From the NCBI RefSeq assembly GCF_000442275.2, contig NZ_KE557306.1:612668-676667 (forward strand): DNA of 64,000 bases, written 5' to 3'. Shown in pieces: positions 4,073 through 64,000 of the stretch. The translations under genes and the position numbers were made by a program. Within the stretch, counting starts at the first letter, position 1. Each line of letters starts with the position of its first letter. Below the pieces are notes generated by a model. The model was not told the DNA's origin and did not search any database. It worked only from the letters and a program-made list of their open reading frames with translations. This DNA is from Litoreibacter arenae DSM 19593 (GTDB lineage Bacteria > Pseudomonadota > Alphaproteobacteria > Rhodobacterales > Rhodobacteraceae).

Positions 4073-5404
4073 TCAGCCGCCGCCGTAGATATATATCGGC
4101 AGCCATGTCGCGATTGCCGGGAACAGGAACACCAGCGACAGCCCGAGTATCTGGATGACCATGAACTGCATCATGCCGAAGTATATGTCCTTGAGATCCC
4201 ATTCCGGCACCACGCCTTTCAGAAAGTAGGCTGACAAGGCCACGGGCGGACTGAGCCACGCGGTTTGCAGACAGACCGCGACGAGGATGGCGAACCACAG
4301 CATATCGACCTGCAACTCCAGCAGCACGGGCGACAGGATCGGCAGGATGATCAGCACGATCGGCACCCATTCGAGCGGCCAGCCGAGCACGAAGACCAGC
4401 GCGAGGATCAGGATCACCACCACGGAAGCCGAGACGTCGAGGTTCAGCAGCAGCTCGGTGATCATGGTCGGTGTGCCAAGGCGCGAGAACACGGCGCCGA
4501 AGAAGTTGGACGCGGCGACCAGGAACAGGATCAGGACCGAGATTTCCAGCGTCTTGATCAGCGCGTCATATAGGCCTGCCCAAGTGAACTTGCGATACCC
4601 GATGGCCAGCAGGATGGAGCCGAATGCCCCCATGCCCGCGCCCTCGGTCGGAGTGGCCCAGCCTGCGAGGATCGAGCCCAATGCGAAGGCGATCAGGATC
4701 GTGGGCGGGACGAGGCCGAAGAACAGCTCTTTCCAGATGATGGACCGGTTTTCGGGGATCATGTCCTCGGGCAGGGGCGGGCCAAGCTTGGGGTTTATCC
4801 AGCAGCGTCCCAAGGCGTAGATCACATAGAGACCGGCCATCAGGATGCCGGGGAAGATGGCCGCCGCGAACAGGTCGGTGACGGGGATTTCCAGCACCGG
4901 CCCCATGACCACCAGCATGATCGACGGCGGGATCAGGATGCCCAGCGTGCCGCCTGCGGTGATGGTCCCTGCCGCCAGCCGCACGTCATAGCCGGAGCGG
5001 TTCATGGTCTTCGCCGCCATGATGCCAAGGATGGTGACAGAGGCGCCCACGATGCCGGTTGCCGCGCCGAAGACCACAGACACGAACAGCACCGCGAGGT
5101 AGAGCGAGCCTTTCATGCGGGCCAGCATCATCTGGATGGCCGCGAATAATCGCTCCATCAATCCGGCCTGCTCCATCATGAAGCCCATGAACACGAAGAG
5201 CGGGACCGCCGCGAGGGTCTGCTCCATCATCGAGTTGTAGAATTGCAGCGTCATCAGGAAGACGGTCAGTTTCACGCCGAAGCCCCAAGCGCCGAAGACG
5301 ACGCCCAGAAAGATCAGGGTGAAGGAGATCGGGAAGCCGATAAAGATCGCGAACAGCATGGCCCCGATCATGAACAGGCCGATTATTTCGTTGGAGAATT
5401 CCAT
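4073..5404 (-). CDS. dctM: TRAP transporter large permease (DctM subunit)
   Basis: A 443-residue, highly hydrophobic inner-membrane protein with about 12 helices, the Na+-coupled transport subunit of a tripartite ATP-independent periplasmic transporter. Family landmarks include FIGFPISFTLIFLGVVFG near the start and GGTLGILIPPSIMLVVMG in the middle. The ATG at 5404 shares its A with the TGA of the small permease gene (TGATG), so translation is coupled; an in-frame codon 12 residues upstream is rejected for that reason. Last gene of the GMC-dctP-dctQ-dctM run. Confidence 0.93.
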   Translation of the reverse strand: MEFSNEIIGLFMIGAMLFAIFIGFPISFTLIFLGVVFGAWGFGVKLTVFLMTLQFYNSMMEQTLAAVPLFVFMGFMMEQAGLMERLFAAIQMMLARMKGSLYLAVLFVSVVFGAATGIVGASVTILGIMAAKTMNRSGYDVRLAAGTITAGGTLGILIPPSIMLVVMGPVLEIPVTDLFAAAIFPGILMAGLYVIYALGRCWINPKLGPPLPEDMIPENRSIIWKELFFGLVPPTILIAFALGSILAGWATPTEGAGMGAFGSILLAIGYRKFTWAGLYDALIKTLEISVLILFLVAASNFFGAVFSRLGTPTMITELLLNLDVSASVVVILILALVFVLGWPLEWVPIVLIILPILSPVLLELQVDMLWFAILVAVCLQTAWLSPPVALSAYFLKGVVPEWDLKDIYFGMMQFMVIQILGLSLVFLFPAIATWLPIYIYGGG

Positions 5405-6033
5405 CAGACGGGCCACTTTCCGCGTGTCGCGGCGTACCACGATTTCAAGATTTCAGAGATACCCTGAATGCACAGGAAGAAGACCCCAGCTGTCAGGGCC
5501 ATTTTGACGGGCCACACGATGGGTGCCCATGTGCTGTCACCGGCGCGCTCGCCTTGCAGGAAGGACTTGGCGGAGAAGTCGTAGCCCGCCTTCAGAAAAA
5601 ACAGCATCGCGGGCATGAACAGCACCACGTAGAGGATCAGATCGACGCGGCCCTGCGTGCGGTCCGAGAAGCCGCGATAGATGAAGTCAGCCCGGATATG
5701 CAGCCCGCGCATCAGCGCGTAGGCGGCACCCAGCATGAAGGACATCCCGTAGAGCATCCGCGACAGGTCGTAGGACCACAGCGTCGGCGCGATGAAGAAC
5801 TTGCGGGCGATGACCTCGTAAACCATGGCGAGGATGATCGGCACGACCAGAAGGCACGCGATGCGGCCTTGCCAGTTGGAGAAATGGTCGATGGCGTAGA
5901 TCGCCTTGCGGGCGAGGGGGTGCATGTCGTCGGGCAGTTTCTTGCCCACGGCTCCGCCCGCATCCGCGAGAAGCTCGTCACCGACATTCTCGTATTCCGA
6001 GAAGTCGATCTTGTCTTGATCTTCGTTCATCAT
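5404..6033 (-). CDS. dctQ: TRAP transporter small permease (DctQ subunit)
   Basis: A 209-residue inner-membrane protein with an acidic cytoplasmic N-terminus of about 50 residues (MMNEDQDKIDFSEYENVGDE) and four transmembrane helices starting near residue 55. The segment RMLYGMSFMLGAAYALMRGL is characteristic of DctQ. The subunit bridges the binding protein and the large permease. The long N-terminal tail is unusual but common in the subgroup paired with TakP/FcbT-like binding proteins. It is coupled to dctM by a TGATG overlap, and preceded by a 9-bp intercistronic stem-loop after dctP. Confidence 0.88.
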   Translation of the reverse strand: MMNEDQDKIDFSEYENVGDELLADAGGAVGKKLPDDMHPLARKAIYAIDHFSNWQGRIACLLVVPIILAMVYEVIARKFFIAPTLWSYDLSRMLYGMSFMLGAAYALMRGLHIRADFIYRGFSDRTQGRVDLILYVVLFMPAMLFFLKAGYDFSAKSFLQGERAGDSTWAPIVWPVKMALTAGVFFLCIQGISEILKSWYAATRGKWPV

Positions 6034-58084: not shown

Positions 58085-59242
58085 ATGTGGAAATCCATCG
58101 CCTCGAACTTCCTGACGCTGTTCATCCTGCTACTGGTCGCTGCTGGCGCGCTGGTGGGCTGGGGACAGGCGCAATACACCAAGACCGGCCCGCTGGAGGA
58201 CGCGATTTGTGTGCGGGTGCCGTTGGGCGGCTCGATGGCGCTGGTCTCACGCGACCTTGAGGCGAAAGGGGCCGTGTCGAACGGGCGGATTTTCCGCATC
58301 GGTGCGGATTATGCGGACAAGTCGCAACAGCTGAAAGCGGGCAGCTTTCTGGTGCCTGCGGGCGCGTCGATGGAGCAGATTGTCGACATCGTCACCCGTG
58401 GCGGGCAGAACACATGCGGCACGGAAGTGGTGTACCGCATCGGTGTGACCTCGCGCAGCGCGGTGGTGCGGGAGTTGGACCCGACGACGAACGAGTATAT
58501 CGAGACGGCCAAGTTTACGCCTGGTGTGGACGAAGCGCCTCAGGTCTATGTGGAGGCGCGTGACGACCGTGATGTGCGCTACCGCGTGGCGGTGGCCGAG
58601 GGCGCGACTAGCTGGCAGATCGTGGATAGCCTGCGGGCGCTGGACGTGTTCGAAGGCGAGATCGACGAAACCCCGCCGGAGGGCAGCCTTGCGCCGGACA
58701 GCTACGAAGTGCAGCCGGGTGCGGACCGTGCAGCGTTGATCGCGAAAATGACGGCAGCGCAAGAGAAGATACTGGCGGAGGCGTGGGAGGCGCGTGACCC
58801 GAACGTGCCGCTGGAGAGCCCGGAGGAGGCGTTGATCCTTGCCTCGATCATCGAGAAGGAAACGGGTGTTCCCGAGGAGCGGCGGCAGGTGGCGAGCGTG
58901 TTCACCAACCGTTTGCGTCAGGGCATCAAGCTGCAAACGGACCCGACGGTGATCTATGGCGTCACGCGCGGCGAAGGAGTGCTGGGCCGTGGCCTGCGCC
59001 AGTCGGAGTTGCGCCGCGAGACGCCTTACAACACCTATGTGATCCCCGGCTTGCCGCCGACCCCGATTGCCAACCCCGGCAAGTTGTCGATTGAGGCAGC
59101 GCTGAACCCGGACGACACCCCCTACATCTTCTTTGTGGCGGACGGCACGGGAGGTCATGCGTTTGCGGTGACCATCGAGGACCACAACCGCAACGTCGCC
59201 GAATGGCGCAAGATCGAGGCGGAGCGGGCCGCGCAGAACTGA
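58085..59242 (+). CDS. mltG: Endolytic murein transglycosylase MltG
   Basis: A 385-residue inner-membrane-anchored enzyme (YceG family) that cleaves nascent glycan strands and sets their length. One N-terminal helix (about 8-28) and a LysM-like segment are followed by the catalytic YceG domain. Landmarks are LILASIIEKETGVPEERRQV, with the catalytic Glu in IEKETG, ASVFTNRLRQGIKLQTDPTV, and IPGLPPTPIANPGKLSIEAA. It is longer in the middle than E. coli MltG (340). A terminator follows, then the GTA cluster. Confidence 0.94.
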   Translation: MWKSIASNFLTLFILLLVAAGALVGWGQAQYTKTGPLEDAICVRVPLGGSMALVSRDLEAKGAVSNGRIFRIGADYADKSQQLKAGSFLVPAGASMEQIVDIVTRGGQNTCGTEVVYRIGVTSRSAVVRELDPTTNEYIETAKFTPGVDEAPQVYVEARDDRDVRYRVAVAEGATSWQIVDSLRALDVFEGEIDETPPEGSLAPDSYEVQPGADRAALIAKMTAAQEKILAEAWEARDPNVPLESPEEALILASIIEKETGVPEERRQVASVFTNRLRQGIKLQTDPTVIYGVTRGEGVLGRGLRQSELRRETPYNTYVIPGLPPTPIANPGKLSIEAALNPDDTPYIFFVADGTGGHAFAVTIEDHNRNVAEWRKIEAERAAQN

Positions 59243-59456: not shown

Positions 59457-60032
59457 ATGAACGAGACACCCGAACCAACCGGCTTGCCGGACCAATTGGT
59501 GACCCAATCCGTAGACGAGATTTTGGAAGACCTGACGATGATGGCCCGGGAACTGACGGCACAAGTCAGACGGGAATGGCGGCGCGTTATCGCAGACCAG
59601 TCGGTCGCGCCGGACTTCAGAACGAAGCTGAAGCAGGATCTTCAGAGCCTGTTGAACACAAGCAGAGACGCGGAAGGAAAACTTGATGAATACCGCAGAA
59701 AGCGTGCCGGGCGCGCCGCAGAATACGCCGTTGATCTTGGAGCGGCCCGGCTTGAGATCAGGCGCCGCCTTGATCGCATCCGAGACGGACGAGATCCGCG
59801 AGGCGTTTCTTGGGGGTCTGAGCGACGAGGAGGCCTCGGCGCTGCCGTTCCTGTTCGATTTCTGGGCGCATCCGCATCAACTGCCGCCTGCGGGCGACTG
59901 GCGGTCTTGGGTCATCATGGGCGGGCGCGGCGCGGGCAAAACCCGTGCGGGGGCCGAATGGGTGCGGATGATGGTCGAGGGCGACATGCCCGGCGATCCG
60001 GGCCGTGTGCGGCGCGTGGCGCTGGTAGGTGA
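59457..60032 (+). CDS. GTA g1-like small terminase, with out-of-frame overlap into g2
   Basis: The first about 105 residues (MNETPEPTGLPDQLVTQSVD, then MMARELTAQVRREWRRVIAD and AVDLGAARLEIRRRLDRIRD) match the small-terminase-like first gene of the Rhodobacter GTA cluster: helical and charged. Homologues end about there. In this genome no stop occurs, and the frame continues for about 80 low-complexity Arg/Gly-rich codons that simply read the terminase gene in another frame (to 60032). Either the stop was lost or a small indel occurred. The functional part is 59457 to about 59775. Its role is DNA recognition for packaging. Confidence 0.7.
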   Translation: MNETPEPTGLPDQLVTQSVDEILEDLTMMARELTAQVRREWRRVIADQSVAPDFRTKLKQDLQSLLNTSRDAEGKLDEYRRKRAGRAAEYAVDLGAARLEIRRRLDRIRDGRDPRGVSWGSERRGGLGAAVPVRFLGASASTAACGRLAVLGHHGRARRGQNPCGGRMGADDGRGRHARRSGPCAARGAGR

Positions 60033-61080
60033 AACCTTTGACCAAGTGCGCGACGTGATGATCTTTGGCGATAGCGGGATACTGGCGTGCTCGCCCCCTG
60101 ACCGTCGGCCTGAGTGGCAGGCCACGCGGCGGCGGCTGGTCTGGCCCAACGGGGCGATTGCGGAGGCGCATAGCGCGTCCTCGCCGGAGCATATGCGCGG
60201 GCCGCAGTTTGACGCGGCTTGGGTGGATGAGCTGGCCAAGTGGACCAAGGCGCGGGAGGCCTATGACCAGCTGCAATTCGCGCTGCGTCTGGGGGACCGT
60301 CCGCAGCAGGTGATTACGACCACGCCGCGCAATGTGACGGTGCTGAAGCAGATACTGGATGCGGGGTCGACGGTGGTGACCAATGCGCCGACCGAGGCCA
60401 ACAAGGACAACCTTGCGGCGTCGTTTTTGGAAGAGGTGCGCAGGCGCTATGGCGACACGCGGATGGGGCGTCAGGAACTGGACGGTCTGCTGCTGGATGA
60501 TGTGGACGGGGCCTTGTGGACCGCGTCGATGCTGGAGGACTTGCGGGTGAGTGAATTGCCCCACTTCGAGCGGGTGGTGGTCGCGGTGGACCCTGCGGTG
60601 TCGTCGAAGAAGGCGTCGGACGCGTGCGGGATCGTGGTCGCCGGGCTGGTGCGGTCCGGCAAGGACTGGGAAGCCGTGGTGATTGAGGACGCAACCGTTG
60701 AGGGGGCGTCGCCCACAGGCTGGGCGCATGCGGCCTTGGCAGCGTATGAGCGGCACGGTGCGAACCGGATCGTGGCGGAGGTGAACCAAGGCGGCGATCT
60801 GGTGGAGACGTTGATCCATCAGCTGGACCCTGTGGTGCCGTACCGGTCTGTCCATGCCTCGCGGGGCAAGGCGGCGCGGGCGGAGCCTGTGGCGGCTTTG
60901 TATGAACAGGGGCGTGTTAAGCACTATGGCGCCTTGGGGCCGTTGGAGGACCAGATGTGCCAGATGACGGTGACGGGCTTTCAGGGCTCCGGCTCGCCGG
61001 ACCGTGTGGACGCGCTGGTCTGGGCGTTGACGGAACTGATGGGTGCGAGTGCGCCACAGGCGCGGATCCGCACGCTCTAG
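59686..61080 (+). CDS. GTA large terminase (g2-like)
   Basis: A 464-residue packaging ATPase/nuclease. Walker A is MGGRGAGKTRAGAEW (about residue 78-92), the Walker B area QFDAAWVDELAKW, the coupling motif VITTTPRN, and the RNase H-like nuclease Asp in VVAVDPAVSSKKASDACGIV with VAEVNQGGD. It closely follows the GTA/T4-like large terminase and looks intact. ATG 59686 follows AAGGAAAA; the conserved region begins near 59785. It could still be expressed even though the rest of the cluster is incomplete. Confidence 0.9.
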   Translation: MNTAESVPGAPQNTPLILERPGLRSGAALIASETDEIREAFLGGLSDEEASALPFLFDFWAHPHQLPPAGDWRSWVIMGGRGAGKTRAGAEWVRMMVEGDMPGDPGRVRRVALVGETFDQVRDVMIFGDSGILACSPPDRRPEWQATRRRLVWPNGAIAEAHSASSPEHMRGPQFDAAWVDELAKWTKAREAYDQLQFALRLGDRPQQVITTTPRNVTVLKQILDAGSTVVTNAPTEANKDNLAASFLEEVRRRYGDTRMGRQELDGLLLDDVDGALWTASMLEDLRVSELPHFERVVVAVDPAVSSKKASDACGIVVAGLVRSGKDWEAVVIEDATVEGASPTGWAHAALAAYERHGANRIVAEVNQGGDLVETLIHQLDPVVPYRSVHASRGKAARAEPVAALYEQGRVKHYGALGPLEDQMCQMTVTGFQGSGSPDRVDALVWALTELMGASAPQARIRTL

Positions 61081-61179
61081 AGCACCGTACGGTGGTGTAA
61101 GACGATCTTAGGGGCGGCGACATAGATTGCCCTTAACGACGCGATAAAGGGGTTTCGGCCCTGATGCGACAGACAATTG

Positions 61180-61217
61180 AGGCCCCTGTGACATGAACAC
61201 GGGGGCCTTTTCTTTTT
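61180..61217 (+). terminator. Terminator-like hairpin between GTA terminase and portal genes
   Basis: An 11-bp stem (61180-61190 with 61198-61208, one G:T pair) and a 7-base loop, then a T-rich tail TTTTCTTTTT. It lies in the 154-bp gap between g2 and the portal remnant, and would cut transcription inside the GTA cluster. Confidence 0.65.
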
Positions 61218-61234
61218 GGACGAACAGGAGCCGG

Positions 61235-62140
61235 ATGATGGTGTTTGACTTTTTGCGGCGTGGACAGGCGGAGGTGCCGGAGGCGAAGGCCTCGGCCACG
61301 GGCAAGGTGCTGGCTTATGGCGGGCGCGGCATTGCCTGGAGCCCACGGGATACGCCGTCGCTGACGCGGTCCGGCTTTGCGTCGAACCCTGTGGGGTTCC
61401 GGTCGGTGAAGATGATCGCCGAGGCGGCGGCGGCGTTGCCACTGGTGTTGCAGGACGGGGCGCAGCGCTATGACACGCACCCTGTTCTGGGACTGATGTC
61501 GCGGCCCAATCAGGCGCAGGGGCGGGCGGAGATGCTGGAAGCGCTCTATGGCCAGCTGCTGCTGTCGGGGAACGGGTATCTGGAGGCCGTGGGGCTTGGA
61601 GAGGGCGTTCCGGTGGAGCTGCATGTGCTGCGCTCTGACCGGATGAGCTTGGTTCCGGGCGCGGATGGCTGGCCTGCGGCGTATGAATACGCAGTGGGCG
61701 GGCGCAAGCACCGGTTTGACATGACGGGGGAGCTGGCACCGATCTGCCATATCCGCAGTTTCCATCCGCAGGATGACCATTACGGGTTCTCGCCCCTGCA
61801 GGCGGCGGCAACGGCGATTGACGTGCATAACTCTGCCTCGCGCTGGTCCAAGGCGCTGCTGGACAACGCGGCGCGGCCTTCGGGGGCGATTGTCTACAAG
61901 GGCGGTGATGGCCAGCAAGCGATGACCAATGACCAGTTCGAGCGGTTGCAGGTCGAGATGGAAGCGCACCATCAGGGCGCGCGGAATGCGGGGCGGCCGA
62001 TGCTGCTGGAGGGTGGCCTGGACTGGAAGCCGATGGGGTTCTCGCCCTCAGATATGGAATTCCAGAAGACCAAGGAAGCCGCCGCGCGCGAGATTGCGCA
62101 GGCCTTCGGGGTGCCGCCGATGCTGCTGGGGATATGTTGA
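61235..62140 (+). pseudogene. GTA portal protein (g3-like), 3'-truncated by deletion
   Basis: About 300 residues of an HK97-type portal protein. It contains TRSGFASNPVGFRSVKMIAE, LYGQLLLSGNGYLEAVGLGE, HIRSFHPQDDHYGFSPLQAA and EIAQAFGVPPMLLGI. In intact portals this last motif is followed by PGDNTYANYAEA and about 90 more residues. Here it stops with Cys-TGA at 62140, because the sequence switches to a fragment of the g15-like tail gene near 62133. AGGAG precedes the start. It could not form a complete portal ring. Confidence 0.85.
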
Positions 62141-63446
62141 GGCAGAAGGGGAGTTTGTGGCCCGGGTCACTGATGCACGGTTTCCCCATGACGAGGCAAC
62201 GGACGTGACGCAGAACGAATTGCCGCTGGCGTTGACCGAAGCGGAAGCGACAACAATTGCGGAGCGTTGGCTGTCCGGGGCGCGCGTGGCGCGTGACGGA
62301 GTGAGCTTCAGCCTTCCGCCGTCGCGCAGCGATTTGCGGGCGGGTGACCTGGCCAAATTGACCGATGCCAGCGGTGGCTCGACGCTCTACCGGGTCGACC
62401 GGATCGAAGACCGTGGCGCGCGGCACGTCGAGGCGGTGAGGGTGGAGCGGCAAATCTACACGCCAAGCGAGGCCGTGGAAAGTGTGGGGGAGGTGAGACC
62501 TTTCGCGGTTCCAGTCCCTGTGTCCGCGCAGTTCATGGACTTACCTTTATTGAAGGGCGATGAGGTGCCACACACCCCCTATATCGCCGCGACGGCGCGC
62601 CCCTGGCCGGGGGGTGTTGCGGTGTATGGCTCCGCCGAGGACAGCGACTACAGCCTCAACACCGTGATCGAACGACCTGCCAGAATGGGCGTGCTAAAAA
62701 CTTCGCTGGAAAAAGCGGAAGCGGGACTGTGGCAGCGGGGCAGGCCTTTGCGGGTGAACGTAGCGGGCGCACCGTTGAGTTCTGTGACAGCTGACGCCGT
62801 ACTGAACGGGGCAAATGTGGCAGCTATCGGCGACGGATCGTCCGACAAGTGGGAGGTTATCCAGTTTGCAAGGGCAGACTTAGTTGCGCCCGACACCTAC
62901 GACCTGTCCGGCCTATTGCGCGGGCAGGCGGGAAGCGATGGATTGGTTCCGGATTCTTGGCCAACGGGAAGCCGCTTCGTCCTGCTCGATGGTGCGCCGA
63001 CCCAGATTGGCATGGAGCTATCCTCGCGCGGATTGGCGCGACACTACCGGATCGGCCCGTCTCTGAGGCCCTATGATGACCCTTCTTATCGCTACTACGT
63101 CGAGGCATTCCAAGGAGTTGGCTTGCGCCCTTACGCCCCTGCGCACCTCAAAGTGCGGCAAACGGGAGGAGATACCCACCTAAGCTGGGTGCGTCGGACC
63201 CGGATTGACGGTGACAGCTGGGCATCGCTGGAGGTGCCTCTGGGTGAGGAATTCGAGCGGTATTTGGTGCGTGTCACCCACAATGGCAGCGTTGTGCGTG
63301 AGGTGGAAACAGGATCTGCGGCTTGGACCTACGTCGACGCTGAACAATCACAGGACGGGCTGACAGGCCCCTATGAAATCGAGGTGGCGCAGGTCTCCCT
63401 GCGCTTTGGCCCAGGACTCTTCTCAAGGATTGAAATCAATGGTTGA
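62133..63446 (+). pseudogene. GTA g15-like baseplate/host-specificity protein, C-terminal fragment
   Basis: About 437 codons of the C-terminal part of the large multidomain GTA tail protein, which is normally about 1300 residues. It has EFVARVTDARFPHDEATDVT, ELPLALTEAEATTIAERWLS and YRVDRIEDRGARHVEAVRVE, then the LSGLLRGQAGSDGL and RYYVEAFQGVGLRPYAPAHL ending. It has no start codon or ribosome site of its own and begins, out of frame, at the junction with the portal gene. Followed by the DUF2793 gene with an 8-base overlap. Confidence 0.85.
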
Positions 63447-64000
63447 TACGGTAAATCTTAGACTTCCTCTATTGGCACCTTCACAGGCTCAAAAACATGT
63501 GACGGTAAACGAAGCCTTGGCGCGTATTGACGCCGCCTTGCAATTGGGCGTCGTCAGCCGGTCCCTTGCAACGCCGCCGGCACTGCCGGAACAAGGCGAC
63601 AGCTATCTGGTTCCGTCCGGCGGGGTGAATGACTGGGATGGTGAGGACGGAAACCTGGCATTCTTCATCAATGGCGGGTGGGACTTCCTCTCTCCAATTG
63701 CAGGTTGGCGCATTTTCGTTGCCGACGAGGCGGTAAGCGTGACATTCGACGGCCTTGGCTGGCAAGACAACGTATTGTCCACCTCACCTTTCGGTGCGGC
63801 AATGCGTGCCGAAACAGTCGAGTTCGATTTTGACATTGGCGCAGGCCCAAGCGTGCTAACCGGCTACGTGATCCCTGACGGAGCCATTGTGCTTGCGGTG
63901 ACGGGGCTTGTGATAAATGCAATCACCGGCACGTTGACGGACTGGTCATTGGGGGTAGAGGTGTCCGACATACGTTATGGATCGGGACTTGGGATTGGTA
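63439..64000 (+). CDS. DUF2793 domain protein, putative GTA tail fibre (partial, runs off the window)
   Basis: 187 codons are visible from ATG 63439 to the window end. The start MVDTVNLRLPLLAPSQAQKH, then VTVNEALARIDAALQLGVVS and the block PALPEQGDSYLVPSGGVNDW, matches DUF2793 proteins encoded right after g15 in Rhodobacterales GTA clusters, likely tail-fibre or receptor-binding parts. The gene overlaps the g15 fragment by 8 bases (ATG within its end). The 3' end is not in the window, so intactness is unknown. Confidence 0.82.
   Translation, partial: MVDTVNLRLPLLAPSQAQKHVTVNEALARIDAALQLGVVSRSLATPPALPEQGDSYLVPSGGVNDWDGEDGNLAFFINGGWDFLSPIAGWRIFVADEAVSVTFDGLGWQDNVLSTSPFGAAMRAETVEFDFDIGAGPSVLTGYVIPDGAIVLAVTGLVINAITGTLTDWSLGVEVSDIRYGSGLGIG

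Follow-up and report, generated by a model that had tools for sequence, protein, structure and literature searches.

Loss of the structural genes of an RcGTA-type gene transfer agent cluster in Litoreibacter arenae by a probable single deletion, and recurrent cluster loss among its relatives

Gene transfer agents (GTAs) are tamed viruses which carry host DNA from cell to cell. RcGTA-type systems also have loci that are unlinked to the head-tail cluster, namely a regulator, head spikes, lysis and maturation. Gene numbers g1 to g15 are taken here from the GTA of Rhodobacter capsulatus (RcGTA), and g1 is presumably the position of the small terminase gene.

In R. capsulatus, g16 and cysE1 are located directly downstream of RcGTA and cysE1 is on its own transcript (PMC9552610). 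The megatron, encoded by g15, consists of a peripheral domain (residues 230-744), a central domain (745-984) and a fibre-binding domain (985-1304) (PMC7296036). Pseudogenised and lost GTA clusters have been described in several lineages, which are possibly cheaters (PMC10883770). The window analyzed here is a stretch of 64,000 nucleotides of Litoreibacter arenae DSM 19593. It contains a locus which resembles RcGTA, as its truncated portal matches the RcGTA portal 6te8 (E 3.8e-143) and g15 of a congener matches 6tba/6teh. Unlike RcGTA, the locus lacks about 10.1 kb of structural genes, and no particle could be made from it. The pseudogenised and lost alphaproteobacterial clusters in PMC10883770 match the window in outcome and in suggested cause (non-producers), but no join of the window type is described in the accessible text of that study and incomplete clusters were discarded from its analysis. 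GTA cluster loss itself is already in print, and the feature in the window is real and of a known kind. From sequence comparison, we interpret it as a recently gutted RcGTA-type head-tail cluster that most probably suffered one deletion of about 10.1 kb, in a non-producer lineage, and assign this reading a probability of roughly 0.88.

The window locus and its break point

The assembly (3.68 Mb in 14 contigs, 99.96% complete) carries the join within the 1.49-Mb contig C4. The order of the locus is fabF-mltG-g1-TerL-portal'-'g15-g16-cysE, with cysE outside the window. The features are as follows.

58085..59242, + strand: mltG (yceG), 385-aa open frame flanking the cluster on its left
59457..60032, + strand: g1, small terminase position, with a stop-loss, 191 aa; 95% identity to G005 over 111 aa
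59686..61080, + strand: g2, large terminase TerL, full length, 464 aa; Terminase_6N 1.2e-27, Terminase_6C 2.3e-18
61235..62140, + strand: g3, truncated portal; native through codon 300, followed by a single foreign codon and TGA
62130..62134, + strand: GGATA at the join of the putative deletion, present in both parental sequences in L103
62133..63446, + strand: C-terminal third of g15 (megatron), remnant frame of 437 codons, stop at 63444-63446
63439..64000, + strand: g16 (DUF2793 gene), overlapping the end of g15 and continuing past the window edge; DUF2793 6e-29

The TerL protein is 87-97% identical to those of the five closest congeners. The portal gives a Phage_portal match (3.8e-69) which covers positions 2-240 of the 321-position profile, the rest of the profile being absent, and its 301 codons before TGA compare with open frames of 407-430 aa in the five closest congeners. 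The g15 remnant covers 437 of 1317 codons and is 79-82% identical to the five closest congeners over these codons, without stops; it matches Rcc01698_C (3.2e-33), Phage-tail_3 (1.3e-18) and phrog_4271 (positions 858-1307 of 1309). Mapping to the numbering of PMC7296036 suggests that it retains the fibre-binding domain and some of the central domain. In the whole window-strain locus (L002), g16 encodes 236 aa and cysE follows downstream, beyond the window. The g1 gene ends at residue 118 in six of the seven congeners translated (G001, G002, G003, G005, G013 and G004), the seventh (G006) having a longer, diverged g1 of 136 aa. In the window this stop codon is replaced by TGG (59811-59813), giving a 73-residue extension which overlaps TerL. 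This stop-loss is the one lesion seen among the window remnants.

The break was mapped by blastn of L002 against the five closest intact congeners (L101-L105). In all five, the left block ends at 4801/4802 and the right block starts at 4797/4798 of L002, which corresponds to 62130-62134 of the window. The left block is 80-90% and the right block 73-74% identical, and the blocks are collinear with a single break at one point; judged by these alignments, the pattern is more than chance. In the more distant congeners L106 and L107 the left match ends at 4801 too, and the right match resumes only at 5626 and 5056, respectively. Relative to the five closest congeners 10,081-10,128 bp are missing, from portal codon 300 to the last 437 codons of g15. 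Pfam searches of the corresponding stretch of L101 identified prohead protease, capsid, connector, head completion, tail completion, tail tube, DUF2460, baseplate hub and NlpC/P60 domains, with one of the ten frames scanned lacking a Pfam match. A preliminary description of the window, made from its sequence, had proposed that everything from the portal 3' end through most of g15 was lost in a single deletion, and the alignment to the intact clusters of close relatives agrees with this on both the extent and the single break. It had also described the portal as fused to g15, which holds for the DNA (62130-62134) but not for the protein. The portal frame reads ...PPMLLGIC up to its TGA stop (62138-62140); the g15 frame, open from 62133, lies one frame over, so that no portal-g15 protein is made. 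A restart of the g15 remnant is possible at GTG 62157.

The GGATA repeat is 5 bp long (in L103, left ...GGGGATACC, right ...TTGGATATG). The comparison shows that two thirds of g15 and the portal 3' end were lost together with the genes for protease, capsid, connector, tail and baseplate, most probably in one illegitimate deletion of about 10.1 kb between the short GGATA repeats in portal and g15. What remains is g1 with its stop-loss, an intact TerL, the truncated portal, the out-of-frame g15 remnant, g16 and cysE. That the strain has an intact cluster from which the assembler dropped 10 kb is very improbable. With only about 5 bp common to the parental sequences where the break lies, no long repeat was available for such a collapse. 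The deleted DNA was found in none of the 14 contigs, and the separate stop-loss in g1 fits a dead cluster.

The window genome was also searched for GTA genes elsewhere. The portal family gave one match, the truncated portal itself, and capsid family PF05065 gave none; the capsid of a congener scores 8.4e-90 to this family. The deleted 10 kb, searched as DNA against all 14 contigs (40 of 123 first-look candidates scored), returned only ten matches of 25-47 bp to one dispersed repeat. No second intact cluster was found with portal, capsid and deleted DNA as queries. A capsid gene, a full-length portal and the tail and baseplate genes up to g15, which characterize a functional RcGTA-type cluster, are absent from the window, and the remaining genes are orthologous to and syntenic with those of intact clusters, as in a degenerate RcGTA-type cluster. 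The earlier proposal that the lineage cannot make particles is borne out for this locus. Particles could not be built from it, and the lineage is most likely a non-producer ("cheater") that would avoid the lysis cost of production while the downstream cysE stays intact.

As a separate observation, the start of g9 in L101 (7375-7400) carries a 26-bp sequence, AGGTATTTTTGAAGCAATGATGGGGG, which has 10 listed full or partial copies in the window genome (87-100% identity).

Constraint on the remnants and age of the deletion

Selection on the remnants was estimated with a two-rate codon model with the window branch as foreground (an in-house script, not published software). For TerL, omega was 0.049 on the window branch versus 0.054 in the background (0.049-0.053 across runs), and values of 0.10 and 0.15 for the window branch cost 3.5 and 9.1 in twice the log-likelihood. 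For the g15 remnant, omega was 0.042 versus 0.063, and values of 0.08, 0.10 and 0.15 cost 4.8, 8.6 and 16.9. For g16, omega was 0.054 versus 0.048; a value as high as 0.20 costs only 4.0, so this gene bounds the age little. As constraint is undiminished in TerL and the g15 remnant, either the deletion happened recently or selection still acts on the remnants. Unless they are selected, only a small part of the window branch would be neutral, about 2% as judged by g15 and up to about one tenth by TerL. Identity is lower on the right side of the join, which was considered as a sign of decay and rejected, as intact congeners have the same drop. The deletion is probably recent relative to the species split, as the preliminary description had suggested; the lack of relaxed omega in TerL and the g15 remnant supports this but falls short of proof.

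Remnants that still have a role would show undiminished constraint as well. TerL, the g15 C-terminus together with g16, or both may have been kept for a second function, in which case the deletion may be old. Omega on the window branch is as low as in other congeners, which speaks for such a role, but the g15 remnant has no native start, the stop of g1 is lost, and deletion of g16 in R. capsulatus is reported to have been without significant impact (PMC9552610). Taken with the family data below, we regard a second role as possible but rather unlikely.

Another explanation is that the deletion arrived with imported DNA, the segment from g1 to portal coming from the group of G002, G003 and G005 and having been joined through a short repeat on its right side. 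Synonymous divergence between the window and these genomes is 0.13-0.20 in TerL and portal, against 0.38-0.42 for the portion of mltG that was compared and 0.54-0.60 for the g15 C-terminus, g16 and cysE, which suggests that the TerL-portal segment (59457-62134) may be recombined or imported. However, intact congeners drop similarly to the right (G005-G003: portal 0.19, g15 C-terminus 0.50) and identity among them declines after about 10-12 kb. The rightward drop is common to intact congeners, so only the contrast between mltG and TerL is specific to the window strain. Import and deletion may be separate events, and arrival of the deletion with the imported DNA is unlikely. The favoured reading remains a recent single deletion.

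Recurrent cluster loss and the TerL-g15 chimera

Neither the g1 stop-loss nor the recurrence of such deletions in the genus and family was part of the preliminary description. In the genus, a portal match was found in 16 of 21 genomes (window genome included), the g15 end in 20 and TerL or part of it in 19. Among the portal-less genomes, G010 retains only the last 52 codons of g15, G008 gave no match (its assembly is 79% complete), and G004, G006 and G017 have one frame of 843-853 aa that combines TerL and g15. In the family, a portal match at E up to 1e-60 was found in 315 of 394 genomes, and the g15 C-terminal domain in 349. The window genome, G362 and G393 score as portal-positive, so that a portal match is no proof of an intact cluster. 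By hand count, the g15 domain is retained in 40 of the 79 portal-less family genomes, some of which may be prophage relatives or incomplete. This retention favours a second role of the remnants, but the other 39 portal-less genomes have no match to the domain. Other joins in the family are portal-g15 (G065), capsid-g15 (G362) and g14 adjoining a g15 remnant (G393), and in G131, G143, G259, G355 and G096 pieces of TerL and g15 lie close together with different end points. For the locus of G065 (L167), one search gives TerL and the g15 remnant in a 977-aa open frame with a portal fragment between them; another gives a g15 frame of 385 aa, with TerL aligning in two pieces.

As judged from these loci, cluster loss is repeated among relatives and the commonest kind met is a TerL-g15 fusion at the same codon. 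This chimera was detected in 19 genomes, three of the 21 in the genus (L116 of G004, L117 of G006 and L118 of G017) and at least 16 of the 394 in the family sample, from 16 other genera (G063, G075, G090, G099, G112, G124, G157, G159, G160, G164, G236, G260, G263, G332, G357 and G397). A DNA pattern of the join, allowing up to 2 mismatches, gave 28 places in 26 of the 394 genomes, compared with 4 for the reversed pattern; upon translation, 13 places were true fusions and 15 chance matches. The chimeras of G124, G164 and G357 were detected by protein and missed by the DNA pattern, which makes 16 of 394 a lower bound. The chimeras of the genus contain TerL up to residue 182 (window numbering) followed by the last ~650 residues of g15. 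In all 19, the Walker B Asp of TerL precedes a shared Glu, a g15 TIM-barrel strand fits after this Glu, and Walker A is kept. Mapping to the domain numbering of PMC7296036 suggests that the chimera retains the megatron from the end of the peripheral domain onwards. In L107 (G015), this strand of g15, at ~13 kb in cluster orientation, reads WFTELVCAAV, where most other congeners have WFTE(L/M)GCAAI. The full frame is 827-904 aa in 16 chimeras, and 16 of the 18 assessable frames are intact, the others having a frameshift (G075) or an in-frame stop (G332); the frame of G159 runs off its contig.

Next to the chimera, mltG was detected in 18 and cysE in 18 of the 19 loci, and g16 in 11. In other genera, fabF-mltG is located upstream in 12 of 13 fused loci. 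No GTA portal was found in the chimera genomes, 16 of which were searched at E 0.001 and G124, G164 and G357 at E 1e-60; G112, the one genome of its genus, has one weak portal match (22% identity). The chimera loci resemble the window in that the middle of the cluster is lost from the same locus and the g15 C-terminus retained. They differ in that their TerL ends after Walker B and passes in frame into g15, whereas in the window TerL is whole, the break lies in the portal, out of frame, and there is no Walker B-g15 join at the shared Glu codon. No mention of a TerL-g15 fusion was found in the accessible text of the GTA literature searched. None of 230 matching phage records and none of 16 matching plasmid records covers 80% of the chimera in one place.

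Selection on the chimera was estimated with fused rows as foreground. With 15 of the 19 fused rows among 31 rows, omega of the terminase half (TerLN) was 0.079 versus 0.128 in the background (2 dlnL 16.2), which favours a second role; for the g15 part (g15T, 8 fused of 16 rows), 0.130 versus 0.142 was no difference (2 dlnL 1.3). Fused pairs gave 0.051-0.057 (G099+G236, G332+G160) and 0.071-0.109 (G397+G164, G112+G157), and G063 and G090 gave 0.054-0.111. Against a second role, TerLN omega is raised in two fused lineages (G260 0.386, G124 0.267), the fused frame is broken in G075 and G332, and g16 is missing from the detected genes at the fused loci beyond the 11 given above. Many, not all, fused genes appear to behave like working genes, and low omega could also be maintained through recombination with intact alleles.

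Origin and meaning of the recurrent losses

That the chimera arose once and was passed on by plain descent was rejected by AU tests for the sequence compared. The test gave p 8e-6 for the three Litoreibacter fusions among 15 rows with both arms, p 3.5e-6 for Litoreibacter when restricted to the 80 codons next to the join in each arm, and p 1.6e-51 for all 19 fused among 51 rows, with at least 13 changes of state on the tree. Fused rows adjoin intact rows in the trees of both arms, and in a fabF+mltG tree the 18 fused rows fall into 14 separate clades (eye count). These change-of-state counts carry no direction; the intact state is taken as ancestral because phage and RcGTA relatives are intact. 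Sampling was one genome per species.

Two causes of fusion at the same codon were tried. Microhomology was rejected for now, since exact runs at the site are only 3-5 bp in the ten of twelve intact congeners that have both motifs; exact repeats of at least 7 bp common to TerL and g15 number in the hundreds. A structural rationale gained no support, as an AlphaFold model of the chimera (48 rows, pTM 0.43, mean pLDDT 73) shows no joint fold at the join. This model is weak, with pLDDT below 50 for residues 182-221 and most of 256-290. Residues 48-85, which include Walker A, are also mostly below 50, which makes the model weak there, and later parts are confident.

The recurrence at one codon can be read in two ways: the exact chimera may have been selected repeatedly, or one old null allele may have had its arms homogenised by recombination. 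We tentatively propose, as a possibility that falls somewhat short of probable, that GTA loss in Rhodobacteraceae is non-random and that a precise GTA-null allele, combining the ATPase half of TerL in frame with the megatron at the Walker-B/TIM-strand Glu codon, recurs across the family either as an ancient trans-species producer/cheater polymorphism or as a domesticated chimera. If so, the deletion in the window would have led to this non-producer state in a more haphazard way.

GTAs are costly and depend on lysis, which raises the question of how they persist against non-producers. In the present data, one genus contains intact clusters as well as several null alleles and the family contains a null allele that recurs at a single codon, which makes the producer/cheater question testable. 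The remnants are easily misread in annotation; the chimera tested, for example, scores 752 bits to the NCBI megatron model, just below its cut-off of 800. The recurrence of cluster loss, and above all the same-codon chimera, is the part most worth attention.
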